A stretch of 64,000 nt of DNA, taken from contig JAUIHI010000020.1 in the NCBI GenBank assembly GCA_030432295.1, positions 1 through 64,000 on the forward strand, written 5' to 3'. Made by a program: the position numbers and the translations under genes. Source of the stretch: Anaerolineae bacterium (GTDB taxonomy: Bacteria > Chloroflexota > Anaerolineae > Caldilineales > Caldilineaceae). Positions 4,473 through 38,196 of this stretch are shown here, piece by piece (the first letter of the stretch is position 1; every line of letters begins with the position of its first letter). Under the pieces are notes generated by a model. It saw only the letters and a list, made by a program, of their open reading frames with translations, searched no databases and was not told where the DNA came from.

Positions 4473-5234
4473 TCAAAGATTACGATCGTTGTCATTGTTG
4501 CTCTGATCGCTGCGTTGAACGCGCATCTCTTCCAAAACACTCTGGATGTTGCCATAGTGCTGCACAATGGCCACCCGGGCCGCATCAATATCACGAGCCG
4601 CCAGGGAGTCCACAATGGCTTCGTGCCATTGATAGATTTCCTTAGGATCAGGATTCGATGGAATCGGTGTCCGCTGGCGCGCCTGGGAAAAGACCATCCA
4701 AAAGACATCGACAATTTTTCCCACGCTGCGATTCCGTACGTTGGCCCACAGGGTGCGATGGAACAGCCGATCTTCTTCTGGATAGTCCTTGCCCTGGCCC
4801 AAAATCGTCTGCATACGTTCCAGGATGGCGTGAAATTGCTCTAGCTGGTCATCAGTGACAGCCGCGACAGCCTGGTCGATCATACTGTGCTCAATGTGAA
4901 AGCGCACCTCCAGGATATCCGCCAGGTCCTTAAGGTCAAACATCATGCCGTAGGCCAGGTTTTCGAGCAACGGGTCAAAGGAAAAGTTGCGGACAAACAG
5001 ACCGGCACCGGTTCTGGCCTCAACAATCCCTAATGTTTCCAGGGATTTGATCGCCTCGCGCACAGAGTTGCGGCTGACGCCAAGTTGCTCAGCCAATTCC
5101 GTCTCCGGCGGCAGGGCATCTCCTGGCACCAGCGCCTGCTCAATAATAAATGCTTTGACTTCATCCTGTACGGCCTGATAGAGAAACTGTGGCCGCTTCA
5201 ACTTCCGGTTTTCAAATTTTGGCTTGGAGAGCAT
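4473..5234 (-). CDS. GntR/FadR-type transcriptional regulator (FCD domain)
   Basis: A 253-residue regulator. Residues about 17-82 form a winged helix-turn-helix (PPETELAEQLGVSRNSVREA). Residues about 95-235 form an all-helical FCD ligand domain with the likely metal ligands D155-x3-H159, H204 and H226. FCD proteins are usually repressors released by a sugar acid or related carboxylate. The gene is divergent from the HpcH/HpaI aldolase gene. A 25-bp near-palindrome (5286-5310) covers the -10 boxes of both promoters, so auto-repression and control of the aldolase operon are likely. The MocA and aldo/keto reductase genes downstream may be co-transcribed, although a repeat separates them. The effector is unknown. 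Confidence 0.93.
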   Translation of the reverse strand: MLSKPKFENRKLKRPQFLYQAVQDEVKAFIIEQALVPGDALPPETELAEQLGVSRNSVREAIKSLETLGIVEARTGAGLFVRNFSFDPLLENLAYGMMFDLKDLADILEVRFHIEHSMIDQAVAAVTDDQLEQFHAILERMQTILGQGKDYPEEDRLFHRTLWANVRNRSVGKIVDVFWMVFSQARQRTPIPSNPDPKEIYQWHEAIVDSLAARDIDAARVAIVQHYGNIQSVLEEMRVQRSDQSNNDNDRNL

Positions 5235-5276: not shown

Positions 5277-5305
5277 ATGACAATAATACTATCCTACTGT
5301 AGTAT
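5277..5305 (+). promoter_or_regulatory. candidate promoter of the aldolase operon
   Basis: ATGACA (5277-5282) and TAGTAT (5300-5305) are spaced by 17 bases on the plus strand. The -10 box lies inside the palindrome at 5286-5310. The first gene downstream starts at 5372. Confidence 0.5.
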
Positions 5306-5310
5306 AGTAT
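5286..5310. promoter_or_regulatory. predicted GntR operator between divergent promoters
   Basis: The arms atactat and atagtat bound an almost perfect 25-bp palindrome; apart from the central base, one base pair mismatches. It overlaps the -10 boxes of the regulator promoter (minus) and the aldolase promoter (plus). This is the expected place for a repressor encoded by the adjacent GntR gene. The position and symmetry are seen in the sequence; binding is inferred. Confidence 0.65.
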
Positions 5311-5371: not shown

Positions 5372-6148
5372 ATGCGCGCAAGTAAGATGTTGGCGAAGTT
5401 TCGCAGTGGAAGTTTTGCCCGAGTTTGTTCGATGGGCCATTTTCTGCCCTTTTATGTGCGCTATGCCGCACACTTCAAATTCGACGGTATTTGGTTGGAT
5501 CTGGAGCATCGCAATATGAGCGACCGGGAGGTGCAAGCGCTCCTGGCTATGTGCCATGCCGCGGACATCGATTGTATGGTGCGCCCGCCCACATTGGAGC
5601 GGACAAAGCTCTACCGCTATTTGGAAGATGGCGCCAGCGGCTTTCTCGTGCCCCTCATTTCCACGCCAGAGATGGCAAACGATCTGGTGCAAGCGGCCAA
5701 ATTCCCTCCCATTGGCAACCGGGGCATGGATGGTGCCGGGCTGGACTCGGATTTCGGCATTGCCGCCTGGGGCGAAGGCATGGACTTTGCCGGGGACGCC
5801 AACCGGGAAACCTTCATCCTGCCCCAGATCGAGACGCTGGAAGCTGTGGCCAATGCCGAGGCCATCGCATCTATCGAGGGCATCGATGGGCTTTTCCTCG
5901 GACCTGCGGACCTTCAGATGCGCATTGGGGCCGCGGCTGGCACGTCGATGACCTTTGACAAAGCCGTAGAGACAGTGGCGGCGGCCTGCGAAAAGCACAA
6001 CAAAGTGTGGGGCATCGCAGTCGGTTCGCTGGAACAACTCAAGCGCTACCAGGCGATGGGTGCCCAAATTGTGCCCTGGGGCGGTGACTTTTCCCTGATG
6101 AGCGTCCTCGACGCCCGCAGTAAAGAGCTGGACAGCGCCGGCCTGTAA
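5372..6148 (+). CDS. HpcH/HpaI family aldolase (2-keto-3-deoxy acid type)
   Basis: A 258-residue class II pyruvate-type aldolase. Visible family motifs are FDGIWLDLEH near residues 38-46 (family DxEH), GNRGMDGAG in place of the usual GxRG, QIETLEAVANAEAIA, and GIDGLFLGPADL. These bracket the divalent metal and the pyruvoyl group. The family cleaves or forms 2-keto-3-deoxy acids to pyruvate plus an aldehyde in the cytoplasm. An AGGAG site (5358-5362) precedes the ATG. It is the first gene of a long plus-strand run with an aldo/keto reductase, a dehydrogenase and an amidohydrolase, which suggests a terminal cleavage step in sugar-acid breakdown under the adjacent GntR regulator. Confidence 0.93.
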   Translation: MRASKMLAKFRSGSFARVCSMGHFLPFYVRYAAHFKFDGIWLDLEHRNMSDREVQALLAMCHAADIDCMVRPPTLERTKLYRYLEDGASGFLVPLISTPEMANDLVQAAKFPPIGNRGMDGAGLDSDFGIAAWGEGMDFAGDANRETFILPQIETLEAVANAEAIASIEGIDGLFLGPADLQMRIGAAAGTSMTFDKAVETVAAACEKHNKVWGIAVGSLEQLKRYQAMGAQIVPWGGDFSLMSVLDARSKELDSAGL

Positions 6149-7307: not shown

Positions 7308-7323
7308 CCTGTAGTACAATAGG
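7308..7323. promoter_or_regulatory. possible second site resembling the 5286-5310 operator
   Basis: The reverse strand reads ctattgtactacagg, which shares the core tactacag with the operator at 5286-5310. It lies upstream of the MDR dehydrogenase gene. The symmetry is weak and the match is short, so this is only a candidate. Confidence 0.25.
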
Positions 7324-7366
7324 ACAGAATCTGCGTTTCAGGAAAGACTCCACTGGGAAAAGGTCA

Positions 7367-7491: not shown

Positions 7492-8523
7492 ATGAAAATC
7501 GCCATTCTTCACGGCCCCCGTGACCTCCGCATTGAAGAGCAGCCCCTGGACACCCACCACTTGCAGCCAGATGAAATCTGGGTGGAGACGCGCATTTCAG
7601 CGTTGAAAATCGGCACGGATCGGGGCAATTATGAAGGAGCCGAACGGGTTCCCGGCGCGCCCGACTATCCGCGCTGGGTGGGTGACAGCAATCTGGGCAT
7701 TGTGCGGGGTGTGGGCAGCGCGGTCACCCGCGTGCAGGTGGGCGACCGCATCATTACGCGTATGCCCCACCAGTCCGCCTATATTACCACCCAAGACGCC
7801 AGTATAGTCAAGGCCCCGCCCAATGTCAGCGACGAAGACGCGGTTTACGCCCATCTCTACGCGCTCAGCGCCCACTGCTATCACAAGGCCCATTTCAAAG
7901 CTAGTGAAACGGTGGCGGTGGTGGGGCTGGGCACACTGGGACTGGGCGCGGTAGCAGTCGGTCCCCTCTTTGGGGCGCGGGTGGTGGCGATTGGCAACGA
8001 CGCCTTTCGCATGGATTTGGCCAAACGGATGGGCGCCCACGCCACGCTGCTCTACAACGATCCAGACCTGCACGCAAAGCTGGCGGAGTTCACTGACGGC
8101 GCGGGCATCGATCTGGTGGTGCTGACCGCCAATCCCTGGCCCGCCTACCGCACGGCTGTGGAGATTGTGCGCCCCAATGGCCGGGTTTCGATTGTCAGCC
8201 TGCTGGGGCGGGGCGAGGCCGATCTGGACTTCAATCCGCTCTCTATGCAGAACTTCTACATCAAAGGCATCTCTCTCATCGCTGTCTCTGGTCCCGCGGG
8301 CTATCTCTATCCCAACGGCAGCGGCGATCCCCGCACCACACGGGATCAGTACACGGCGGATCGGACAGCCGCGCATATCCTTTCGCTGATGGCCGATGGG
8401 CGGCTGGAACCGAAACGGCTGATCACCCACCGTTTCCATTACAGCGAGATGGCGAAAGCCTACGAAATGGCCTATGCCCGGGACAAATCCATGTTGGGTG
8501 TCATTTTTAACTGGCAAGAATGA
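7492..8523 (+). CDS. zinc-independent MDR-family alcohol dehydrogenase
   Basis: A 343-residue medium-chain dehydrogenase/reductase. The N-terminal GroES-like domain contains VQVGDRIITR, and a Rossmann domain carries VGLGTLGLG near residue 142. The four-cysteine structural zinc cluster and the usual catalytic Cys/GHE motifs are absent, so zinc-dependent alcohol oxidation is unlikely. Related zinc-free members act on sugars or sugar derivatives. An AAAGGA site precedes the ATG. The downstream amidohydrolase starts 25 bases after the stop. The pair could oxidise a sugar to a lactone and then open it, but this is inferred from gene order only. Confidence 0.9.
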   Translation: MKIAILHGPRDLRIEEQPLDTHHLQPDEIWVETRISALKIGTDRGNYEGAERVPGAPDYPRWVGDSNLGIVRGVGSAVTRVQVGDRIITRMPHQSAYITTQDASIVKAPPNVSDEDAVYAHLYALSAHCYHKAHFKASETVAVVGLGTLGLGAVAVGPLFGARVVAIGNDAFRMDLAKRMGAHATLLYNDPDLHAKLAEFTDGAGIDLVVLTANPWPAYRTAVEIVRPNGRVSIVSLLGRGEADLDFNPLSMQNFYIKGISLIAVSGPAGYLYPNGSGDPRTTRDQYTADRTAAHILSLMADGRLEPKRLITHRFHYSEMAKAYEMAYARDKSMLGVIFNWQE

Positions 8524-19844: not shown

Positions 19845-21956
19845 TTATTCGTTGATAAACCAGGTGGCGGGTACCATCGGATACCATTCGCCCGAAATGG
19901 ACGAGGTAGGCACATTGCGAACCCGGTTCTTGACGATCTTCAACTGGCCGAAGCGGGGGTCGTCCACCACCAGGCCGATGGACCACAGGTTGTCCATGTG
20001 GATTTCGAAGACCTGCTGCATCAGAGCGTTGCGGGTGTCTTCGTCGCCTTCGCCCAGAATCTGATCGCGCAGCACGCGCAGCTGCTTGACATCCTCCGGC
20101 GGCTCCGAACCCTGCTCGCCATCTGTGTCCAGCCACAATGCCCACTCAGGTGCCCACTGCCAGCCTGTCAAAGCAAAGGTGTTGCCATTCAGGGTGGGGT
20201 GCACTGGGCCGCCGCCAAAGTGGCCGCCCCGAGCCGAGACATCGTGCTCTCCATTGTTGTGACGTGTGCCCCACAGCGCGCCAGCTTCGGGTGCGACCGA
20301 AGCATTGATGCCGACTGCGGCCCAATAGCCCCGCACCAGTTCCATCAGCACAGGCGTTTCCGCTGGCCAGGAAGTGGTGGCAGAGATGATCAACAGCAGC
20401 TTTTCACCGTTGGGAGCCAGACGGAAGCCGTCTCCATCCCGCTCAGTCAAGCCGAGGTCATCCAGCATTGTGTTAGCCAGTTCCGGATCGTACTGTGCCC
20501 AGGACTGGAAGAGTTCCGATTCGCCGTGATAGGGAGCGCCACGGGCCGGTGCAATCTGGGAAGGGAAGACGCCGCCCTTGTATTGCAGCTTGACGATTTC
20601 CTCTCGATTGATTGCCACTGACAAAGCCTGGCGGAACTCCTTCTGGTTGTAAAGCTCCTGCTTTACCTCGTCGCCGCTGGTGTAGTTGAACATAATATTG
20701 CCATAGGCGTTGGGCATCCAGTTGGCATAGGCAAAGCGATAGTCGGCCTTTTCTTTGTTCTCCGACAGGATGGCCAGATTAGCAGGACCACCCGTCCAGC
20801 CAATGCCTACATAGTCCAATTCGCCAGCAATGGTTTTGAGCAGGGCTGCTTCCGTGTCCGCAATGCGGACGGTACGGATGGTGTCGATATAGGGCAACTG
20901 ATTGCCGGCGGTGTCGACTTTCCAGTAATAGGGATTGCGCCGATAGGTTTGAATCTGCTGGGGAGGACGCTCGTTGAGAATCCACGCGGCCAGGCTGGGA
21001 TTGTTCGGGTTTTCACTGGAACGCATGTAGTTGAAGAGATCCACCCAAGTGTCAAAGCCCTCTTCTTCCATCTTGGCTTCAATGTCGGCCATTTCCGTAT
21101 AATTCGGGTGGAATCCCATCAGGTAATGCTTGGGCATAGTCGTGAGGTCTGTGCGCGGAAAGCCCCAGCTTCCCAAATACGTTGTGAACAACGCATAGGG
21201 TTTGGAGAAGGAAAACTGAATGGTGAAATCATCCGGGGCGACCAGTTCGGCCAGCACACCATCTCTTGTCAACAGCGCATGGGGGCTGGGCGTCAGTTCT
21301 TCGTTGAGCACGAAGTCATTCCACCAGAACATAATATCTTCTGAGGTAAACGGAACGCCGTCACTCCACTTGATGCCCTTGCGCAGGGTGAGGGTCAACT
21401 GAGTATAGTCATCATTCCATTCCCAGCCGCTAGCCACATTGGGGACAATCTCTTCTTGTGGATTGTGTACGGTCAGGGGTTCAATCAAGAAGTAGGTGAC
21501 GTCGGCAGCCACAGGACGCTGCCCATCAATGCTGGCTACGAACGTCCCGCCATATTTGCCGATAGTTTCATCCGGCTCTACGACAACGGGTTCAACCGGC
21601 AAGCGATCCTCCACAGCAGGCAGATCGCCGCTGGCGACGAGCGCAGCCAGTTCTGGAGCCTCGTGATATTCCGTAATGCCGCCCGCGTCTGCCGGGCTGT
21701 TGAAGACTTGCATCGTCACGGGGCGCTCACCCGCATCCGCGGGTTTATCCATCAACACAGGCCCAGCCATCGAATCCGCAGTGGAGGGAGCCTCGGCGGC
21801 TGCGGGCTGTTCGGGAGCAGCCTGCTCTGTGGTAGAGGCTGGCTCGGCTGGGGCTGCGGGTGATTCTGGTGACGCGGGTGCGCCACAAGCACTCAGTAGC
21901 ATCGCAAGTACGATCAATAGATTGAGCAGTGTCACTCTTTTCGATCTAAATAACAT
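19845..21956 (-). CDS. ABC transporter extracellular binding lipoprotein (peptide/oligosaccharide, SBP family 5)
   Basis: A 703-residue lipoprotein. Residues 1-23 are a signal sequence ending in the lipobox LLSAC with Cys24 as the lipidated residue. An Ala/Pro/Ser-rich linker follows to about residue 65, and then a family 5 solute-binding fold with WEWNDDYTQLTLTLRKGIKWSDGVPFTSEDI. The size is larger than DppA/OppA (about 540), a common feature of homologues that bind oligosaccharides in Chloroflexota. AAAGGAG precedes the ATG. It is the last gene of a minus-strand unit with both permeases and both ATPases, so the importer is complete. Confidence 0.94.
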   Translation of the reverse strand: MLFRSKRVTLLNLLIVLAMLLSACGAPASPESPAAPAEPASTTEQAAPEQPAAAEAPSTADSMAGPVLMDKPADAGERPVTMQVFNSPADAGGITEYHEAPELAALVASGDLPAVEDRLPVEPVVVEPDETIGKYGGTFVASIDGQRPVAADVTYFLIEPLTVHNPQEEIVPNVASGWEWNDDYTQLTLTLRKGIKWSDGVPFTSEDIMFWWNDFVLNEELTPSPHALLTRDGVLAELVAPDDFTIQFSFSKPYALFTTYLGSWGFPRTDLTTMPKHYLMGFHPNYTEMADIEAKMEEEGFDTWVDLFNYMRSSENPNNPSLAAWILNERPPQQIQTYRRNPYYWKVDTAGNQLPYIDTIRTVRIADTEAALLKTIAGELDYVGIGWTGGPANLAILSENKEKADYRFAYANWMPNAYGNIMFNYTSGDEVKQELYNQKEFRQALSVAINREEIVKLQYKGGVFPSQIAPARGAPYHGESELFQSWAQYDPELANTMLDDLGLTERDGDGFRLAPNGEKLLLIISATTSWPAETPVLMELVRGYWAAVGINASVAPEAGALWGTRHNNGEHDVSARGGHFGGGPVHPTLNGNTFALTGWQWAPEWALWLDTDGEQGSEPPEDVKQLRVLRDQILGEGDEDTRNALMQQVFEIHMDNLWSIGLVVDDPRFGQLKIVKNRVRNVPTSSISGEWYPMVPATWFINE

Positions 21957-22093
21957 TCCATTTCTCCTTTGGCCATTCTGATCGGGCTATGCAACCTCGA
22001 TGGTCACATATACATTCTCATTCATAGGGTACGATTCGGTCTCTGCGGGGAAAATCATAGGTGGTGGCGCTGGCTTCTCCTTTCTACACACTG

Positions 22094-23176
22094 CTATGCG
22101 GCATTAACGGTAGACACAGGCGACATTGTAACCCCTTCGAGGGAGAGCGATTCGGCAAAGTGACATAACGAATAATGGGGCGGAGCGCCCTCCGTTGCCA
22201 CGTTGACCAAAGGCGGTGTTTCCGTACGGCAGACATCCTCGGCGTATTTGCAGCGGGGATGGAAATAGCAGCCGGTCGGCACGTCCATCGAATCGGCTAC
22301 ATCTCCTTCCAGCACAATGCGCTGCTTTTTCGTCTCGTCCTCCGAAATGGTGGGAACTGCAGAGAGAAGTGCTTCGGTATAGGGATGCTTGGGGTTGGCA
22401 AATATCTCTTCGGTCTGGCCCAATTCTACAATCTTTCCCACATACATCACCGCGACCCGGTCACTGATATACTCCACCACTGCCAGGTTGTGGGCCACAA
22501 ACAGATAAGTGAGATTCAGTTCGGTCTGCAATTCTTTGAGCAGATGCAAAATCTGCGCCTGGACCGACACATCCAGCGCAGAGACAGGTTCGTCGGCCAC
22601 AATAAACGCTGGCCGCAATGCCAGGGCACGGGCAATGGCGATGCGCTGACGCTGGCCGCCGCTAAACGCATGGGGATAGCGGCGCATATATGTAGGGTCC
22701 AAACGCACGCTGCGTAGAAGCTCGGCCACCCGTTCTTCCAGGTCTCGCTGGTTGCTCACAATTTTGCGGGTTATGAACGGCTCGCCTACGATCTCCAGAA
22801 TCGAGAGGCGGGGGTTCAGGGACGAATAGGGGTCCTGGAAGATCATCCCAGCGTGGCGTTGAAAATCGCGCAATTCCTTCTTGCCCAGCGCGTTGATATC
22901 CACAGGGTCCGCGCCTGGATTTACCCGATAGATCGTATGGCCGCTGGTCGGCTCTATGGCCCGCATAACACAACGACCAGTGGTCGTCTTGCCACAGCCG
23001 CTCTCGCCCACCAGCGCCAGGGTCTCACCCCGGCGCACAGAAAAGCTCACGCCATCCACCGCTTTGACCTGCCCGACAACCTTGCGCATGAAACCGCGGG
23101 TGATAGGGAAGTGTTTCTTAAGATTATCCACTTCCACAACGAAATCCGTCTTGGATGTATTTAGTCTCTCAGACAT
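22094..23176 (-). CDS. ABC transporter ATP-binding protein, OppF/DppF type
   Basis: A 360-residue ATPase with Walker [13 protein letters not shown] (about residue 55), the Q-loop in [16 protein letters not shown], the signature [15 protein letters not shown] and Walker [15 protein letters not shown]. The C-terminal oligopeptide/dipeptide extension carries the cysteine cluster [15 protein letters not shown], which in this subfamily can bind an iron-sulphur centre. It energises the importer together with the OppD-like partner, which ends 9 bases upstream. Confidence 0.95.
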
Positions 23177-23185
23177 ATCTGTTTC

Positions 23186-24256
23186 TCAAACGTAAAGGTG
23201 GCAGCGGACCGAATGATTGGGGCCAACTGTAATTTGTGGCGGTTCGCTCAGATCGCAGACGCCGGGCATAAAGTCGGGGCATCGGGGATGAAAGGAGCAG
23301 CCAGTAGGTCGGTCGTACGGACTCGGCACTGTGCCGGTGATGGCCACAATCTCTTGGGATTTGCCGCCGCCCAATTGGGGAACCGAATTCAGGAGACCCT
23401 TTGTATAGGGATGCTTGGGGTTGCGGAAAAGTTCGCCAGCCGGCGCATTTTCCACATCTTTGCCCAAATACATAATCATCACCCTATCGCACAGTTCTGA
23501 GATGACAGCCATGTCATGGGTAATGACAATCATCGCCATATTCATCTCTTGCTGCAAGTCTTTCATCAGTTCCAAAATTTGGGCCTGAATAGTCACATCG
23601 ACCGCGGTTGTCGGCTCGTCGGCAATCAGCAGGAGCGGATGGCAAGAGAGAGCCATCGCGATCATTGCTCGCTGGCGCATACCACCGCTCAGGGCAAACG
23701 GATAGGCATCGACATTCTGCTCTGGCTGCGGCATACCCACCCGTCGCAAGATATCGATGGCCCGGGCACGCGCTTCCGTCTCGTCTACTTTCTGGTGCAG
23801 CCGGATGACTTCAATAATCTGGTTGCCAATGGTGTAGGCCATACTGAAGGAGGTCATCGGCTCCTGGAAAACCATAGAAACCGTGGCCCCGCGAATCTCG
23901 CGGATTTTGTCACCCCGCCAATCCAGTTGAGCCAAATCCACAATCTCATCGTCGTGTTGGAGCAGAATCTCACCGTCAACAATGCGGCCGTGGGTAGGTA
24001 CAATGCGCAGGATCGATTGGGCCATAACACTTTTGCCACAGCCGCTTTCGCCAGCAACGCCCAGGATTTCACCCCGTTTGATGTCAAAACTGACACCATC
24101 CACCGCCCGCAGGATACCTTCCCGAGAGAAAAATTGGGTGTGCAGGTTGCGCATACTGAGCAGGACATTATCATCCTTCATCTCCTGGTCTCGCCCATGC
24201 CTGGCCGCTGCCTGTGTGTCGGAGAGATTCTTTTTTCTTGGTAAATGGGTAGCCAT
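23186..24256 (-). CDS. ABC transporter ATP-binding protein, OppD/DppD type
   Basis: A 356-residue ATPase with Walker [14 protein letters not shown], the signature [16 protein letters not shown], Walker [15 protein letters not shown] and the C-terminal [16 protein letters not shown] cluster. It is the D-type partner of the OppF-like subunit. The ATG at 24256 (MATHLPRK) has an aggggc site; a start 25 codons later (MKDDN) would give the more usual length but has its AGGAG directly adjacent. The gene starts 8 bases after the permease gene. Confidence 0.94.
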
Positions 24257-24264
24257 ATTTGCCC

Positions 24265-25407
24265 CTAAATCGACGCGTATGGGTCGGCTGCGTCGCGCAG
24301 ACCATCACCCACGAAGTTGAAGCACAGAATAGCCACCACCACCAGTGCCCCCGGCAACAGCAGCCAGGGCGATGAGGCCAGTACTCGAATAAATTGGGCA
24401 TCACGCAGGAGAACACCCCAGCTCACTGCCGGTTCTTGCAGCCCCAGCCCCAAGAAACTCAGGGCGGTTTCGCCCAGAATCATCCCCGGCACGCTCAGCG
24501 TGAGAGAAGCGATGACGTGGCTGTAGAAAGAGGGCAGCATATGCTTGAAAATCGTGCGGAGTTCTGTAGAGCCGTTGAGTTGGGCGGCCATGACGAAATC
24601 CTCTTCACGCAGAGACATAAACTTACCCCGCACAACCCGGGCCAATCCAGTCCAGCCCACCAGCGAGAGAATCACCACAATCCCAAAGTAGACCTGCACC
24701 ACAGTCCAGGTCGGGGGCAGGGCCACGCTCAAAGCCATCCAGAGGGGGAGGGTGGGGATAGAGCGCAGGAATTCGATAACGCGCTGGATGATTACATCCG
24801 TTATCCCGCCATAATAGCCTGACAGACCGCCGATCAGAATACCGATCAGCGAACTGATGGCAATGCCTACCAGCCCGATCGAAAGGGAGATACGCCCCCC
24901 GTGAATGACACGCGAGAGTACGTCCCGCCCCTGGTTGTCGGCACCAAACAGAAAGACTGTGCCCTCCTCCACCCCATAGAGATGGATGTCACTCTCAAAG
25001 AGACCCCATAATTCGTATGGATCCCCGTGGACGAAGAAGCGGATCGGATACTTCAAACTTTCGTCGATGGTATAGGTTGTCTTGAAAGTATTGATGTCAT
25101 ATTCAGATGACACGCCATAGACAAAAGGCCGCCATTGGAATTGCCCGTTGTCGAAGAAGTGTAGCGATTGGGGCGGGGCCAGGGTCAGGTCCGCATCGTA
25201 GTGGCCCGGCGCATACGGTGCAACGAATTCGGCAAAGATAGCTGCTAAATAGAAGATGATTAATATAATCAGTGACAAAACAGCCACCCGGTGTCGAACA
25301 AACTTCCAGCGGATAAGCTGCCACTGGGACGCGACCAACAGCTTCTCTTCTTTGACAGGCACAGTTTCCAGAGGGGAAGTCTCTGGGCTTGCATCCAACA
25401 TAGTCAT
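24265..25407 (-). CDS. ABC transporter permease, DppC/OppC type
   Basis: A 380-residue inner-membrane permease. A cytoplasmic N-terminus is followed by the first membrane helix (VLSLIILIIFYLAAIFAEF) and a long extracellular loop (about residues 65-155) that is larger than in E. coli DppC. The core binding-protein-dependent transport domain carries the EAA loop (DFVMAAQLNGSTELRTIFKH). Its start overlaps the end of the DppB-like gene by 4 bases, a sign of translational coupling. Confidence 0.94.
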   Translation of the reverse strand: MTMLDASPETSPLETVPVKEEKLLVASQWQLIRWKFVRHRVAVLSLIILIIFYLAAIFAEFVAPYAPGHYDADLTLAPPQSLHFFDNGQFQWRPFVYGVSSEYDINTFKTTYTIDESLKYPIRFFVHGDPYELWGLFESDIHLYGVEEGTVFLFGADNQGRDVLSRVIHGGRISLSIGLVGIAISSLIGILIGGLSGYYGGITDVIIQRVIEFLRSIPTLPLWMALSVALPPTWTVVQVYFGIVVILSLVGWTGLARVVRGKFMSLREEDFVMAAQLNGSTELRTIFKHMLPSFYSHVIASLTLSVPGMILGETALSFLGLGLQEPAVSWGVLLRDAQFIRVLASSPWLLLPGALVVVAILCFNFVGDGLRDAADPYASI

Positions 25408-26390
25408 ATCGCCTCCCGAATGCGGGGATCAAGCCAGGCCAGAATAATGTCGGAAATAAGCGTTCCGATCAAAGTCAGGGCACTCAGAATAAATACTACG
25501 CTGCCGGCCAGAAACATATCCTGGCTGAGCAGCGCACCGACAAAGAGTGGGGCCAAGGTGGGCAGCCCCAACACCATAGACGTCAGCAGCTCGCCGTTGA
25601 CAAGCGCAGGCAGGGTCCAGCCAATCGTGCTTGCCACAGGGTTCATGGCAATGCGCAATGGATATTTGACCAATACCCGTCCCTCTTTGAGACCCTTGGC
25701 CCGGGCCACCATTACATAGGGTTTCTGCAATTCATCCAGCAGGTTGGCCCGCATCACGCGGATGAGACCAGCCGTGCCCGATGTGCCGACGATCAGCGCG
25801 GGTAGCCAGATGTGGCTCAGAAGGTCGAGAAGCTTAGCGAGGCTCCAGGGGGCTGTGATATATTCGTCAGAGAATAGCCCAACCGCTACATTGCCCGTCC
25901 ATAGAAAGTAGAGCCACAGAAAAATGAGCGCGAGCAGAAAATTGGGGGTAGCCAATCCCAGAAAGCCAATCAGCGTCGCCACATAATCCCCCGGCGAGTA
26001 TTGATTGTTGGCTGAATAAATGCCGATGGGGATGCTGATCACATAGACAAGCAACAGGGATGTGACGGAGATTGCAAGTGTCCAGGGCAGCCGGGCGCCA
26101 ATCAGCTTTGCCACAGGCTGATTCCACTCCATCGATCGTCCCAAGTCCCCTTGCAGCACACCACTGAACCAACGCCAGTAGCGTACGCTCCAGGATTGCC
26201 CCAACCCATAGCGGGCACGCAGTGCCTCAACCTCAGAAGGATCTACAGACTGCATCTGCGACGTGAGTCGATCCACATAGGAGTCCAAATAATCACCCGG
26301 AGGCGCTTCGATGATCGCAAAAGAGATCACACTGATCACCGCCAGCGTGGGAATCATAAACAATATACGGCGCAGAATAAACGGTAACAT
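25404..26390 (-). CDS. ABC transporter permease, DppB/OppB type
   Basis: A 328-residue permease beginning MLPFILRRILFMIPTLAVIS with the expected first membrane helix. The periplasmic segment contains LRARYGLGQSWSVRYWRW and GDLGRSMEWNQPV (family GDLGxS), followed by four to five helices and the EAA loop KPYVMVARAKGLKEGRVLVK. The frame continues to 26462. The ATG at 26390 is chosen because AGGAAC lies eight bases upstream and the protein then begins at the family N-terminus. It is the first permease after the propeller gene. Confidence 0.93.
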   Translation of the reverse strand: MLPFILRRILFMIPTLAVISVISFAIIEAPPGDYLDSYVDRLTSQMQSVDPSEVEALRARYGLGQSWSVRYWRWFSGVLQGDLGRSMEWNQPVAKLIGARLPWTLAISVTSLLLVYVISIPIGIYSANNQYSPGDYVATLIGFLGLATPNFLLALIFLWLYFLWTGNVAVGLFSDEYITAPWSLAKLLDLLSHIWLPALIVGTSGTAGLIRVMRANLLDELQKPYVMVARAKGLKEGRVLVKYPLRIAMNPVASTIGWTLPALVNGELLTSMVLGLPTLAPLFVGALLSQDMFLAGSVVFILSALTLIGTLISDIILAWLDPRIREAI

Positions 26391-26482
26391 TCGATAGGTT
26401 CCTGCATTGCGGATACCGCAGAACCACCGGGCGGTGGCAAAGCCTGCGGTATTGATGGGCAACCAGACAGTTTGGTAGTTGT

Positions 26483-27469
26483 TTAGCTACGAGAGAGATG
26501 TGCCAGGTAGATGGCCGAAGGGGCCAAACCGGTGCCACTGCCTTCGTGGCTGGAATAGAAGGAGAGAAGGGCTTCGTTGGCTGACAATGCCACAAAGCCG
26601 GGATAGGAGTTATCGCCACCGCTGGGCAGTTCCATAATTTCCTGCAAGCGGTCGTCGACCAGTTCGTAGAGAGTTGTGACAGGTGGTGCATCGCCGATCT
26701 GCTTGCGACCGCCCACCAGATACGTGTCGCCCCATTTAGCCAGCATCGGTCCACCCACGTGCCGGTCCAGATCAACCCGGCTCCATTCGGTATACGGCGG
26801 CTGTGATCGACAGAGTTGGGCCGGATGACCGCCTGCGCGGGCGACTGCCAATAAGCTACCATCGTCCTCAAAGAGCAGGGCCGTCTCGTCCCCGCGGGAA
26901 GGTTTGATCAGACCCAACGGTGCCCAGGTGAACCCGTCTCGGCTGTGTAGCAGCCAGGATTCCATATATTCAGCGGGTTCGGCCCGACGGGGAACCACAT
27001 CAAAATTGCGGATGCGCCGTCCGTTCAGATAGGCCACACCGTCGCGAGTGGCGGCCCGCCAGATGTAGTAGCCGTGGGTCCCGTCCAACATACGCGGACC
27101 TTCCCACGTGCGGCCGTCTTCGCTCCAGGCACAGAAGCCCAAATGATCGTTCACATCCCGCTCTTTGGCATCTGTCGTGTCCACCCACCAGGTGCCGGTA
27201 TAGACCATCAGCTTCCCCTGGAAGATAAGAAAGTGGGGGTCGCGCACATCCCGTTTGGGCACGCTGAAGGCGTGGACTTCTTCCCATTCCTGGCCATCGG
27301 GGCTGGACATCACCAAGATTCTGGACGTCGTGAAGAGCATATGTCCGTCGGGGCAACTGCGGAAGGTCAGGTAATAGCGGTCTTGAAAGTGGCATAAATC
27401 TGTGAAGGCGTTGTGGTTGCCATCATTAAAGAGTTGCCGGATCGAGGTTACGTGGATAGGCATAGTCAT
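26483..27469 (-). CDS. sialidase-like propeller protein (third copy), transporter-linked
   Basis: A 328-residue propeller-type protein with SSPDGQEW, SEDGRTWE and SRDGFTWA blades and no signal peptide. It is shorter than the other two propellers, and the blade pattern resembles cytoplasmic glycosidase- or sialidase-like proteins rather than secreted sialidases. It is the first gene behind the promoter at 27547-27575 and precedes the importer genes, so it is probably expressed with them and may act on the imported oligosaccharide. The activity is unknown. Confidence 0.83.
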   Translation of the reverse strand: MTMPIHVTSIRQLFNDGNHNAFTDLCHFQDRYYLTFRSCPDGHMLFTTSRILVMSSPDGQEWEEVHAFSVPKRDVRDPHFLIFQGKLMVYTGTWWVDTTDAKERDVNDHLGFCAWSEDGRTWEGPRMLDGTHGYYIWRAATRDGVAYLNGRRIRNFDVVPRRAEPAEYMESWLLHSRDGFTWAPLGLIKPSRGDETALLFEDDGSLLAVARAGGHPAQLCRSQPPYTEWSRVDLDRHVGGPMLAKWGDTYLVGGRKQIGDAPPVTTLYELVDDRLQEIMELPSGGDNSYPGFVALSANEALLSFYSSHEGSGTGLAPSAIYLAHLSRS

Positions 27470-27535
27470 ACTTTCTCAGAGCGTTGTGCAGATGGCTGCT
27501 GTTGATGTAATTGTGTCGCAGAGCTATATGATTGT

Positions 27536-27554
27536 CCTATAATTGGATTCTAGG
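27536..27554. promoter_or_regulatory. predicted operator 1 (cctatA-N7-TctAgg type)
   Basis: Sequence cctataattggattctagg. It overlaps the -10 box of the transporter promoter and matches the site at 31233-31251 in length, centre (ttggatt) and outer arms (ccta/tagg). The same regulator probably controls both units. Confidence 0.6.
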
Positions 27555-27575
27555 CGATTCATCTGCGCTTGTCAA
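27547..27575 (-). promoter_or_regulatory. strong sigma70-type promoter of the propeller/ABC operon
   Basis: On the minus strand TTGACA (27575-27570) and TAGAAT (27552-27547) are spaced by exactly 17 bases. The start codon of the first gene is at 27469. Confidence 0.7.
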
Positions 27576-27655
27576 ATCGTCTTCGCATCCACCGGACGCC
27601 CCGGTTTATTCATTACCCCAAGGAATGGATGGCACAGCTTCATCGCAAGTTCCCT

Positions 27656-28753
27656 CTATCCACCGGGGATATAGAGTGTGCGATCCGCCACCGGCAGGCT
27701 GACACGGCTGCCCCCTTGCAGATGGGAATGGGCCAGACCGAACTGGACCTCTACACTCTGCATCGTAATGTCCAGGTTGCCTTTGGTTCGCTCGCCCGTC
27801 TCCAGTTCGTGCAGAATATCACGGATGGTGCAGATGGTGGGGCTTTCCCCACTGGGACGAAATATCTTCTCTTCGGTCGTCTGGGTTTTGCCATTGATGC
27901 GACGAATACGAAATTCACCGCCCGCTTCACAGGCAATCGCTCGCCCTTCTGTGCCGTGCACATCAATATCAAACGAACCCCGGCGGGGCACGAAAATCCC
28001 TTCGGCTCCCCCTGCATAGCCCACCCGATAGAAACCGACCATCGGATCGGCAATCTCGAAACCGGGGGAAGGCAGATACCGGTGTCCTGCCGCGTCGTAG
28101 ACCGGGTGGGCACGCCGCGGCGCGGGGTCAGAGGGATCGCCCTCTTCGATCAGCCGACCTTCCACCCATTGCGGCTGGGGATCGCCCAGGAGCATCGCAA
28201 CCAGATCGAGGGTGTGGGGGTGATGTTTGATCAGATCGGTGTAAAAGTACATTGTGACAAAACGGGGTTCGCCGATGTCGCCCTGGGCAATGGCGGCCTG
28301 GAGCTTTTTATAGCCGTCGTGATGGCGGCGCATGGCCCCCCAGTTAAAGGCGACATTGTTGGCTTTGCAGGCAGCCACAATCCGATCCGCTTCGTCCAGG
28401 GAGGCGCAGAGACCCTTCTCGGCATAGATGCCAGAGACCCCGTTTTCCGCGGCAAAGATGATCGGCTCGGCCCGGGCAAAGGAGGGTGTAGTGATGCTCA
28501 CGATGTCGGGCTTTTCTTCTTTGATCATGGCCCGGTAGTCGAGATAGGTGTTGGTGACGCCAAAACGGTCAGCGAAGCGCTGCATCCGCTCGCCCCCCCG
28601 GTTTGCCACCGCGACCACTTCTGTCTCGTCGATGGCCCCGTAGGCCCCAAAATGGCTGTAGGGCTTGGAGAAGTTGCCTGGCCCGATTTCATCTTCGATC
28701 AGACCGCCCATGCGGCCCGTGCCAATAATGGCGACGCGATAATTTTTGGTCAT
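27656..28753 (-). CDS. Gfo/Idh/MocA family oxidoreductase with EKG motif
   Basis: A 365-residue member starting MTKNYRVAIIGTGRMGGLIEDE. The catalytic signature is changed from EKP to EKG at residues 112-114 (GIYAEKGLCASLDEAD). The C-terminal domain continues with NWGAMRRHHDGYKKL and a substrate-side HPHTLDLVAMLLGDP. GAGGAAAA lies six bases before the ATG at 28753; a longer frame to 28810 is less likely. It is the last of three consecutive paralogues that share the RMGxxI(D/E)xE N-terminus and lack the proline. NAD(P)-linked oxidation of a sugar-like compound is expected. Confidence 0.92.
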   Translation of the reverse strand: MTKNYRVAIIGTGRMGGLIEDEIGPGNFSKPYSHFGAYGAIDETEVVAVANRGGERMQRFADRFGVTNTYLDYRAMIKEEKPDIVSITTPSFARAEPIIFAAENGVSGIYAEKGLCASLDEADRIVAACKANNVAFNWGAMRRHHDGYKKLQAAIAQGDIGEPRFVTMYFYTDLIKHHPHTLDLVAMLLGDPQPQWVEGRLIEEGDPSDPAPRRAHPVYDAAGHRYLPSPGFEIADPMVGFYRVGYAGGAEGIFVPRRGSFDIDVHGTEGRAIACEAGGEFRIRRINGKTQTTEEKIFRPSGESPTICTIRDILHELETGERTKGNLDITMQSVEVQFGLAHSHLQGGSRVSLPVADRTLYIPGG

Positions 28754-28815
28754 TTCAGTTTTCCTCGATGAAGCACAATTTGTGGACCCGATACGCTCTC
28801 CACTCAACACATTCT

Positions 28816-29847
28816 TTAGACATGAAAAATATAGAGCGAACGGTTTTCCAGGGGCAGACTGATACGCCGTTGCTGGCGATGGCTCTCGGCCACAGCCAGA
28901 CAGGCTTCGGTCAAGTGGTGGGTGATCTGGATGTTGCCCAGGGTCGGACGCCCGGTTTCATAGGCGTCCAGAATATCTTCCAGACAGGACTGGGTGGTGC
29001 TGTGGGCTTCCACGGCAGGGGTAGGGGCATCGAGGAAGATGCGCTCCTTTTCACTTTTGACTTTGCGTAGTTGCAGGTCGTCGCCGTTGTTGCGCACACG
29101 GATGCTGCCCAGGGAGCCAATCACTTCAAATTCCCAAGTGCCGCCTGGCGCGGTGGTCGCCTCTACGCCATTGGCAAAGAGTACCTGATAGAGGGCATTG
29201 GGGTCTTTGTCCAGCCGATTGTTTTCAATCACCAAATCCCGGGGCAGAAGTTCCCCCCAGACGCTCACCACTTTGGGGTCGCCCAGCAGAAAGCTGAGGG
29301 TGTCCAGCGAGTGGATGTGGCCGTGGAGCAAGTTGGAACCTGCATAATGCACGGCTGCACGCGGTTCGCCGATCTCGCCGTCGGCAATCATACGGCGGGC
29401 GATATGATAGGGACGACCGAAACGACGCAGAACACCTGTGTTAAAGGGAATATTGCGGCTGCCCACCGCGGCCAACGCCGCATCTGCCTCTTCCATCGAA
29501 CAGGCAATCGCCTTTTCGCAGAAGATCATTGGTACATTGGCTTCCGCCACAGCTACTATCATTTCGGCGTGGAGCACACCTTTGGTACAGATAGCCACCA
29601 GATCAGGCTGTTCCTGGCGAATCATCTCCAGATAATCGTCGTAGAGCGCTGTTACGCCCCAGCGAGTCTGAAAGGCGTCGCGCTTGGCCGGGTCGATGTC
29701 GGCCCCAGCGACGACTTCCAAACGCTGGCTGGCACGACAGGCCGAGGCAATCGAGATAGCTGGCGAACCGGCGGGTCTTTCATCGTCAATGGTGCTGCCC
29801 ATACGTCCCAGCCCAACAATAGCAACCCGGTATATTTTGTCTGTCAT
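28816..29847 (-). CDS. Gfo/Idh/MocA family oxidoreductase with EKA motif
   Basis: A 343-residue paralogue of its neighbours (MTDKIYRVAIVGLGRMGSTIDDE). It has GLGRMG in the Rossmann fold and EKA at residues 111-113 in place of EKP. The substrate side shows NTGVLRRFGRPYHIARRM and GHIHSLDTLSFLLGDP. The start at 29847 has AGGAACT upstream; the frame stays open to 29880. It lies 62 bases upstream of the EKG paralogue gene, in the same orientation. Confidence 0.92.
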   Translation of the reverse strand: MTDKIYRVAIVGLGRMGSTIDDERPAGSPAISIASACRASQRLEVVAGADIDPAKRDAFQTRWGVTALYDDYLEMIRQEQPDLVAICTKGVLHAEMIVAVAEANVPMIFCEKAIACSMEEADAALAAVGSRNIPFNTGVLRRFGRPYHIARRMIADGEIGEPRAAVHYAGSNLLHGHIHSLDTLSFLLGDPKVVSVWGELLPRDLVIENNRLDKDPNALYQVLFANGVEATTAPGGTWEFEVIGSLGSIRVRNNGDDLQLRKVKSEKERIFLDAPTPAVEAHSTTQSCLEDILDAYETGRPTLGNIQITHHLTEACLAVAESHRQQRRISLPLENRSLYIFHV

Positions 29848-29895
29848 AGTAGAAGAGTTCCTGTAAACTGAACGCGCCACAGCGCGGAAAGGGGA

Positions 29896-29972
29896 GGAGC
29901 AAATCTGCTTTCAACCCCACCCCAGCCGACAGAACGTCGGTGGTAGGATGCAGCGGAGAACAGATTTGCTCC
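29896..29972. repeat. inverted repeat element between two MocA genes
   Basis: Arms 29896-29907 (ggagcaaatctg) and 29961-29972 are perfectly complementary. A second small hairpin (ccgac/gtcgg) lies between them near 29926-29940. The element resembles a small non-coding palindromic repeat and could also modulate the downstream genes of the unit. Confidence 0.6.
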
Positions 29973-30007
29973 CAAGGGGGATCAATACGCTGGATACGAC
30001 TAAAAGA

Positions 30008-31090
30008 TCAGACAGTATATTTCGGCTTGTTCGGTCCGCGGTTGCGCTGCAAACGGATGGCGCGTTCTTGCACGGGCAGAGAAATCTTGGCACCGCCCTG
30101 GCGATGTGACTCGATGAGGGCAAAGATCAGTTCTGTGCTGGCCAAAGAAACGCGTGGACCGCCCCGGGTCGGTTCGCCTGTATCCAGGCTATGGACCAGA
30201 TCTTCGATCAGGGCCAGCGTGCTGCTGGCAATGGGCGGATCGGGATAGGGTGCTGTCAGCAAGGCCGTCCCTTTGGGGACGATGGGTTGGCGGCGGCGCA
30301 GATGCCACTCCAACCCGTCGTTGTAGGCAGAAAGCGTGCCATTTTCGCAGATCACTTCGATGTCGCCGCCCCGGGGTGTGACCAGCAGATAGCCGGTGAC
30401 GCCGTTGGCAAAATAGACCGTCCCCTCGCCCACCGGGTCTTCGCGCAGAAGATCGCCGTCGAAAATCTCATCGGTGGCGCGCAGGTTGCCCTGTGCCCAC
30501 ACCGCGGGATGGTCGCTATTCAGGCGCATGACCAGATCGATGTAGTGGCTACCCGTGTTAAAGAGCGTGCCGTTGTTGTAGATGATCACATTTTTGAGCG
30601 CGCCCAGCTCGCCGCTGTCCACCAACGCCTTCATCTGGTCATAGGCGACCGACCAGCGACGGTTGGTGCCCAGATTGAAGAAGACGCCGTGGCGCTCCAA
30701 TGTCTCGGCCATGGCATAGGCTTCGCCCAGAGAGGCGGACATAGCCTTTTCGGCATAGATCGCCTTGACCCCGTGCTCGGCCGCGTAGATGGTAATCTCG
30801 GCGCGCTGTTCCGGCTGGGTGGCGATGCTCAGGATTTCGGGCCGTTCTTTATCGATCAGCTCCCGATAGTCGGTGTATTGACGGCTGGCAGGTATCTGAT
30901 AGAGCTTGCCAAATTCGGCCATCACATCCGGGCGCACATCGGAGCAGGCAATCAGGTCAGTCCGCTCACAGGCCATAAAGCCGGCGGCATGGGAATAGGG
31001 CAAAGCAGTTTTGGGCGAGCCAACGACTTCGTTGTCGATAAAGCCGCCCATGCGACTACAGCCAATGACAGCAGCGCGATAGGTTTTCAT
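30008..31090 (-). CDS. Gfo/Idh/MocA family oxidoreductase with EKA motif (first of three)
   Basis: A 360-residue paralogue (MKTYRAAVIGCSRMGGFIDNE) with GCSRMG in place of GxGxxG and EKA at residues 114-116 (IYAEKAMSASLGEAY). The substrate side includes NLGTNRRWSVAYDQM and GSHYIDLVMRL. AAAGGA precedes the ATG. It is the first gene behind the promoter at 31244-31272, with a leader of about 145 bases, and heads a three-gene unit of paralogues. Three related dehydrogenases in a row suggest successive oxidations of one substrate family or a heteromeric enzyme. Confidence 0.92.
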   Translation of the reverse strand: MKTYRAAVIGCSRMGGFIDNEVVGSPKTALPYSHAAGFMACERTDLIACSDVRPDVMAEFGKLYQIPASRQYTDYRELIDKERPEILSIATQPEQRAEITIYAAEHGVKAIYAEKAMSASLGEAYAMAETLERHGVFFNLGTNRRWSVAYDQMKALVDSGELGALKNVIIYNNGTLFNTGSHYIDLVMRLNSDHPAVWAQGNLRATDEIFDGDLLREDPVGEGTVYFANGVTGYLLVTPRGGDIEVICENGTLSAYNDGLEWHLRRRQPIVPKGTALLTAPYPDPPIASSTLALIEDLVHSLDTGEPTRGGPRVSLASTELIFALIESHRQGGAKISLPVQERAIRLQRNRGPNKPKYTV

Positions 31091-31232
31091 TCATCTGTCC
31101 TTTGTTGGGGGAAAGGCAAGCTATCTAAACAGTAATTAGTATCGCCTCATTTTGGTGTTTTAATGATATAAAACGGCAAACAATTATGCGTTTTGCACAT
31201 AAATGAGGGGAGAAAAAAACCTGTCCGGTTAT

Positions 31233-31251
31233 CCTACAGTTGGATTGTAGG
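31233..31251. promoter_or_regulatory. predicted operator 2 (cctacA-N7-TgtAgg)
   Basis: Sequence cctacagttggattgtagg has 6-bp complementary arms around a 7-base centre and covers the -10 box of the MocA promoter. It is the counterpart of the site at 27536-27554. Confidence 0.65.
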
Positions 31252-31272
31252 TCAATCATCCCGACTTGTCAA
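31244..31272 (-). promoter_or_regulatory. strong sigma70-type promoter of the triple MocA operon
   Basis: TTGACA (31272-31267) and TACAAT (31249-31244) on the minus strand are spaced by 17 bases. Confidence 0.7.
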
Positions 31273-37105: not shown

Positions 37106-37412
37106 ATGCGGTATGCAGATTTGTTTTGGAAAGAGAATGGGAAGAAGAAGATGAGGACGGGTTGACAGGATTGGTTCGATGGAAGCTTAAATCTGTAGGA
37201 TAACTATACACCATTTTGCATAATATGCGAATCGCATATCGTGCACTCACTTCCCCCACTGATGAAAAACACTCCCGCTTCTTTCCACAAGCAATAAGGG
37301 CTTCGCCGGAAAGGAATTAGTCTGTTCGAGCCGGAGTGGGCTGTGTAGGATTCATTTTGACGTTTATATTGCCTACCCAACATCGCCCAAGTCCTGGGAC
37401 CTGGCACACGCC

Positions 37413-37440
37413 TTGACAGTGCATCCAGATGTGGTACGAT
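37413..37440 (+). promoter_or_regulatory. promoter of the second GntR gene
   Basis: TTGACA (37413-37418) and TACGAT (37435-37440) are spaced by 16 bases. The start codon used is at 37528. Confidence 0.6.
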
Positions 37441-37463
37441 TTAAATCGTGCATGATACACGAT
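37436..37463. promoter_or_regulatory. palindromic operator cluster at the GntR promoter
   Basis: A perfect 14-bp palindrome acgatttaaatcgt (37436-37449) covers the -10 box. It is overlapped by the inverted pair atcgtg...cacgat (37445-37463). A gcatgat word also occurs twice just downstream. The position is ideal for autorepression by the GntR protein encoded next to it. Confidence 0.6.
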
Positions 37464-37527
37464 GCATGATTCCTTTGCGCTTTGCATAGGCAACACAGCC
37501 AAGATATACCTTAAGGGTAGTGCAGCA

Positions 37528-38196
37528 ATGGACACAGGGACACTGGTAGATCGCGTATATCAAACCCTGAGGGAGCAGATTCTACAGGGGAAATATGAGC
37601 CAGGGCAGAAATTGAACTTGGCCCTGTTGGCGCAAGAACTTCAAGTGAGCAATACGCCGATCCGTGAGGCGATGGCGCGGCTGGAACGGTTAGGGCTGGT
37701 GGAGACTGTCCCCTACGCTGGCCCCAAGATCAGGCGTCTGAACGCTGCCCAACTGCAAGACATTTATGACGTGCGTATCGCGCTGGAAGAGTTAGCCGTG
37801 CGGCTGGTAGCACAAAGCGAAGACCCAGACGCTTTCAACGGTATGGCTGCCGCCCTGGAGATGCAAGAGCGTGCCTGCAAAGGAGATGATCCACGAGCAG
37901 TGGTAGACGCGGATCGGGCATTCCACGATGCCCTTGTCCAGGCTTCCAGGAATAGTGTGTTGCTGGAGATGCTGCCGAATCTGTCGGCTCGCACTCGTTT
38001 GCTATTAGAGTTGAATACCCCCCTGTCGGAAGGGATAGACAGAGAGGCGGCGTTGCGCGGACTACAGGGGCATCGGCGTGTTTTTGAAGCCTTGCGGGAA
38101 GGGGATGCAGACGCAGCAGTGCAGGAACTCCGTCACGAGCTAACCCGTGGCAAGGAGCGCCTGGTGGTACAGATGACCAAGCGGGAAGTCGCCTGA
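37528..38196 (+). CDS. GntR family transcriptional regulator (FCD domain)
   Basis: A 222-residue regulator with an N-terminal winged helix (LNLALLAQELQVSNTPIREA, about residues 29-48). Its FCD domain carries the metal-ligand pattern D129-x3-H133, H182 and H203. The frame is open from 37462, but that ATG would lie directly at the predicted transcription start, so MDTGTLVDRV at 37528 is used. The following genes in the same direction are an aldo/keto reductase, a GH95 fucosidase and two epimerases, which it probably controls. A sugar acid or keto-deoxy acid effector is likely for the family but unproven. Confidence 0.92.
   Translation: MDTGTLVDRVYQTLREQILQGKYEPGQKLNLALLAQELQVSNTPIREAMARLERLGLVETVPYAGPKIRRLNAAQLQDIYDVRIALEELAVRLVAQSEDPDAFNGMAAALEMQERACKGDDPRAVVDADRAFHDALVQASRNSVLLEMLPNLSARTRLLLELNTPLSEGIDREAALRGLQGHRRVFEALREGDADAAVQELRHELTRGKERLVVQMTKREVA

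Follow-up and report, generated by a model that had tools for sequence, protein, structure and literature searches.

A shared promoter-operator element of an importer operon and an oxidoreductase operon in Caldilineaceae, and GntR-A as its candidate FadR-subfamily regulator

Two promoters with one element

Two neighbouring minus-strand units of an uncultured Caldilineaceae genome (G000; 6.7 Mb, 61 contigs), one for an Opp-type importer and the other for three oxidoreductases, raise the question of which regulator controls both. They lie in a 64-kb stretch of DNA, referred to here as the window. According to the initial annotation, each unit starts with a TTGACA-17-TA(G/C)AAT promoter, whose -10 box is covered at the same register by a 19-bp element. 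Coordinates and a regular-expression search confirmed this description.

19845-27469, minus strand: P1 unit; a propeller-like protein (26483-27469), then an Opp-type ABC importer with two permeases, two ATPases and an SBP_bac_5 binding protein (19845-21956, minus strand)
27656-31090, minus strand: P2 unit; three GFO_IDH_MocA oxidoreductase genes (30008-31090, 28816-29880 and 27656-28810)
27547-27575, minus strand: P1 promoter of the propeller/ABC importer unit; TTGACA (27575-27570)-N17-TAGAAT (27552-27547)
31244-31272, minus strand: P2 promoter of the triple MocA unit; TTGACA (31272-31267)-N17-TACAAT (31249-31244)
27536-27554, minus strand: P1 19-bp element; CCTAGAATCCAATTATAGG, read on the plus strand as CCTATAATTGGATTCTAGG
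31233-31251, minus strand: P2 19-bp element; CCTACAATCCAACTGTAGG, read on the plus strand as CCTACAGTTGGATTGTAGG

The two promoters are the only matches to TTGACA-N17-TANAAT on either strand of the window, and the two elements, both with a central TTGGATT in the plus-strand reading, are its only exact matches to CCTA-N11-TAGG. By itself the bare frame is poor evidence, since eight matches were found in the window with one mismatch allowed, versus 11.6 expected. The weight of the observation is carried by the common interior of the elements, their equal register over the -10 boxes and their conservation. The part conserved across P1 and P2 reads TTGACAAG....gaTgA.T..ccTA.AAT.caA.T.TAGGA.aA.c, and beyond about 46 bp, as judged by eye, the likeness ends. 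The shared promoter-operator elements are real and beyond chance.

It is unlikely that the 19-bp unit as such forms the core dimer site: the most constant stretch is the box TRTAGGAYA, and the left CCTA arm shares bases with the -10 hexamer and has been lost from P1 of the related genome G004. The proposal of a 19-bp operator is thus refined rather than discarded: the element is best read as a TRTAGGAYA box with a weaker outer inverted half-site (CCTA) overlapping the -10 box. The functional site in P1 and P2 may be a 17-bp core, the 19-mer or both.

Conservation in the genus and rarity in the genome

Same-register elements are present upstream of the orthologous units in other genomes of the genus, namely at P1 and P2 in G001, G004 and G005, at P1 in G002 and at P2 in G006. 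The 19-mer at P1 recurs in G001, G002, G005 and G004, where the left arm has decayed and the right TAGGACA is kept. At P2 it recurs in G001 and G005 and is degraded in two genomes: G004 reads CCTACAATCCAAACAATCTTT, with the right box gone and the left part kept, and the box of G006 is TACGATA. Genome-wide scans of G000, done by pattern matching, showed that the 19-mer is not scattered; its one further match, with two mismatches (C29:41219), lacks a correctly placed TTGACA-N17 promoter and was discarded. The element recurs at both promoters in one register, is preserved across the genus and is not dispersed through the genome, which supports the suggestion that one regulator probably co-controls both units.

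A candidate regulator in the same gene cluster

The same gene cluster, which is of a sugar type, encodes, about 22-26 kb from the P1 and P2 operons, a GntR-type regulator designated GntR-A.

4473-5234, minus strand: gntR-A; regulator of the FadR subfamily with GntR HTH and FCD domains, proposed to repress P1 and P2
5304-5332, minus strand: gntR-A promoter, TTGGAA-17-TACTAT, read from the sequence
5290-5306, minus strand: putative gntR-A self-operator, TATACTACAGTAGGATA, in the intergenic region shared by gntR-A and the divergent aldolase gene
5372-6148, plus strand: HpcH/HpaI-type aldolase gene (PF03328), divergent from gntR-A and syntenic in G001, G002, G005 and G006

GntR-A comprises an N-terminal GntR winged HTH (PF00392, 3.2e-20, 72.0 bits against a cut-off of 27) and a C-terminal FCD domain (PF07729, 4e-20, 72.9 bits against a cut-off of 24.3), the arrangement of the FadR subfamily. 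In this subfamily the FCD domain binds a carboxylate ligand, often aided by a metal that Asp and His residues coordinate; residues D154, H158, H203 and H225 of GntR-A are invariant in a seven-sequence alignment and would be candidates for such a metal-binding set. The orthologues in G001, G002 and G005 are 84-88% identical. None of the curated NCBIfam cut-offs was reached by GntR-A (NanR 107 of 260 bits, LldR 93.7 of 311, PdhR 75 of 330, ExuR 71 of 396).

The gntR-A promoter contains the palindrome TATMCTA-CAR-TAGGATA, with the TAGGATA box located 7 nt past the -10 box; in P1 and P2, TAGGAYA stands at the identical register. The self-operator is TATACTACAGTAGGATA also in G001, G002 and G005, TATACTACAATAGGATA in G006 and a perfect palindrome, TATCCTACAATAGGATA, in G016. 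A symmetrised matrix was built from the five self-operators of G000, G002, G005, G006 and G016, with the P1 and P2 sequences left out. In the window it ranked the self site first (29.4), followed by three candidate targets:

31230-31246, minus strand: candidate GntR-A operator in P2, AATCCAACTGTAGGATA; score 20.2, second after the self site
7310-7326, plus strand: P3, third candidate target operator, TGTAGTACAATAGGACA; score 14.6, upstream of the zinc-dehydrogenase operon at 7492
27533-27549, minus strand: candidate GntR-A operator in P1, AATCCAATTATAGGACA; score 12.9, fourth in the window, with about 0.13-0.29 chance matches expected

Sequence simulated with an identical dinucleotide composition gave 0.29 matches per 64 kb above a score of 12 and 0.13 above 14, and 2 Mb of it contained none above 16. 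The P3 site is identical in G001 and G002 and reads TATAGTACAATTGGATA in G005. The operon downstream of it, from 7492, is of the zinc-dehydrogenase/aminotransferase type.

Genome-wide, the consensus of the self-operators alone, TATMCTACARTAGGATA, allowed up to two mismatches, had a sole non-self match in each of three genomes: P2 in G000 and G001, and P3 in G005. The broader pattern WRTNSWANNRTAGGAYA matched four times in G000, at the self site, P1, P2 and P3, three times in G001 and twice each in G002 and G005, every time on the contigs of the cluster or of gntR-A; as this pattern was fitted partly to the sites themselves, its informative part is the absence of further matches. The candidate sites lie in front of co-functional genes, are conserved at the orthologous promoters and are rare in the remainder of the genome. 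A further pattern with a variable gap, GTAGGATA, yielded little, and its sites on C55 of G006 and C183 of G004 were dropped for want of a matching promoter. The site at 37186, CTTAAATCTGTAGGATA, has the right half-box only, and its score of 6.6 is within the noise.

Since the near-identical elements most likely bind a GntR-type repressor from the same cluster, a local regulon with a nameable regulator emerges: P1, P2, P3 and the gntR-A/aldolase intergenic region would together form one four-operator regulon of the FadR-subfamily repressor GntR-A, a reading to which we assign a probability of roughly three quarters. The earlier suggestion that the regulator may be encoded elsewhere loses ground, the self-operator model having recovered P2 and, more weakly, P1. 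The related statement that the operator is unlike the palindromes of both GntR genes stands for gntR-C, the second such gene of the window, and for gntR-B on another contig, but not for gntR-A, whose self-operator matches the right arm and the register.

Several observations count against GntR-A. The fit of P1 to the self-operator model is only moderate, and in G001, G002 and G005 P1 has a poor left partner half-site. The self-operator consists of two inverted boxes with centres 8 bp apart, whereas the outer boxes of P1 and P2 are 16 bp apart. The register of P3 relative to its -10 box differs, and the P1 box is retained in G004, where gntR-A was not found.

Absence or apparent splitting of gntR-A and the state of the P2 box

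In four genomes with intact gntR-A (G000, G001, G002 and G005), every P1 and P2 copy seen carries TAGGAC or TAGGAT. In G004, where the search for gntR-A was negative, the aldolase gene that it normally adjoins has different upstream DNA. In G006, gntR-A is present in two pieces at contig ends (L183 1-140 and L171 1-150, on C385 and C14), each running into foreign sequence, and was apparently split by an insertion element. The absence or apparent splitting of gntR-A would thus go with an erased or mutated P2 box, which is suggestive, not conclusive, because it concerns two genomes, both draft assemblies that are fragmented or partly contaminated. One of the foreign sequences at the G006 fragment ends resembles the C-terminus of a transposase.

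Other explanations of the shared element

The 19-bp CCTA-N11-TAGG unit could itself serve as dimer site for a different regulator whose gene lies elsewhere, with TAGGATA at gntR-A reflecting partial coincidence or overlapping specificity. The left-arm CC before the -10 box is kept in all P1 and P2 copies but one, the left part of P2 persists in G004 despite the lack of gntR-A, and sister genera use a 19-bp geometry of the same x-N11-x form, TGGT-N11-ACCA. This explanation is nevertheless unlikely: P1 of G004 kept the right arm and lost the left, the sole further 19-mer match in G000 lacks a matching promoter, and a model built from self-operators only recovered P2 first genome-wide.

It is more improbable still that P1 and P2 are alike merely through duplication of a promoter segment, the 19-mer having been inherited without operator function. 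The likeness does extend beyond the proposed boxes, over some 46 bp that take in TTGACAAG and the spacer; however, it ends with the element, the species with intact gntR-A all have the same TAGGA box while adjacent spacer bases vary, and the box recurs in P3 and in the otherwise unlike promoter of gntR-A.

Control of P1 and P2 by gntR-C (37462-38196, probable start 37528) or gntR-B (contig C54) is very improbable: both are FCD-GntR proteins or close relatives, and a gntR-B orthologue adjoins the propeller operon in G008, G025, G027 and G030, but the palindrome upstream of gntR-C (ATCGTG/CACGAT type) has nothing in common with P1 and P2, the element upstream of gntR-B, TGGT-N11-ACCA, is absent from the window, and no near-full-length gntR-B copy was found in G002, G004 and G005, where P1 is conserved. 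The promoter of gntR-C itself (37413-37470, plus strand) contains repeated ATCGTG/CACGAT and GATGCATGAT elements, unlike those of P1 and P2.

Operator architecture and proposed mode of action

The operators of the FadR subfamily follow the palindromic consensus NyGTM-N0-1-KACNy, and additional, weaker half-sites 7-12 nt from the centre of a GntR site are documented (PMC4494728). Compared with GTM-N0-1-KAC, the GTAGTAC of P3 fits fully, while ATAGGAC of P1 and GTAGGAT of P2 are each one position off; the gntR-A self-operators are palindromic in TATMCTA/TAGGATA. P1 and P2 combine a strong right box with a weaker partner, AATCCAA, at 8 bp and the inverted CCTA arm at 16 bp, overlapping the -10 box.

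We infer binding, repression and the kind of ligand as follows. The ligand-free GntR-A dimer would occupy the TRTAGGAYA box, with its inverted partner, over the -10/start region of each promoter and block RNA polymerase. GntR-A would be released when its FCD domain binds a small pathway metabolite, which is probably a carboxylate, for instance a sugar acid. Uptake would then be induced jointly with the three MocA enzymes, the aldolase and the dehydrogenase operon at 7492.

Judged by its sequence, the GntR-A system belongs to a well-known kind, the ordinary local regulon. Like LldR, PdhR, NanR, ExuR and DgoR, FadR-subfamily regulators of local catabolic regulons, GntR-A has a GntR HTH and an FCD domain, a putative self-operator between the regulator and a divergent catabolic gene, and candidate target sites over the -10/start region with boxes related to GTM-N0-1-KAC. 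It differs from them in its predicted half-sites, TRTAGGAYA instead of TKGT/ACMA, and falls short of every NCBIfam equivalog cut-off. NanR of E. coli, which gave the best named-family score and is a relative of solved structure (6on4), likewise has repeated operator boxes; it binds direct GGTATA repeats (PMC8012715), whereas the boxes of the candidate GntR-A sites are inverted. Literature searches found no described GntR regulon of Caldilineaceae, and the present assignment provides a testable regulator-operator pair for an uncharacterised catabolic cluster and a route to its inducer.

Co-control in sister genera

In sister Caldilineaceae genera, the P1/P2-type element is replaced by TGGT-N11-ACCA upstream of the MocA unit (G008, G020 and G027) and the propeller unit (G020). 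The same element precedes gntR-B in G000, G001, G008 and G025. Its occurrences at MocA, propeller and gntR-B genes are:

L105, positions 8378 and 10954
L106, position 2368
L103, position 9404
L201, position 9302
L202, position 9975

TGGT-N11-ACCA is likely the gntR-B operator, which points to replacement of the regulator. As sister genera share this element at the MocA, propeller and gntR-B genes, co-control of the importer and MocA units seems older than the particular regulator. The gntR-B type thus resembles GntR-A in having a putative operator at both units, with co-control apparently conserved, and differs in the operator arms and in the GntR protein itself, which is about 30% identical. 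The comparison offers a small, clean example of apparent regulator replacement with co-regulation conserved. A tentative and rather doubtful extension is that the same operons have passed between FCD-GntR repressors within one family, with TRTAGGAYA of gntR-A here and TGGT-N11-ACCA, as found upstream of gntR-B, in the sister genera, and that GntR-A accepts inverted boxes at centre spacings of both 8 and 16 bp, possibly as stacked dimers.

The composition of the P2 unit varies within the genus. In G004 and G006 a similar Opp-type importer apparently separates the first MocA gene from the P2-type promoter, the G006 arrangement being composed of two contigs joined by homology, not by sequence. 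In G005 a second Opp-type importer occupies this position (L094 8891-16783), and the insertion also holds a D-aminoacylase-like amidohydrolase and other genes.
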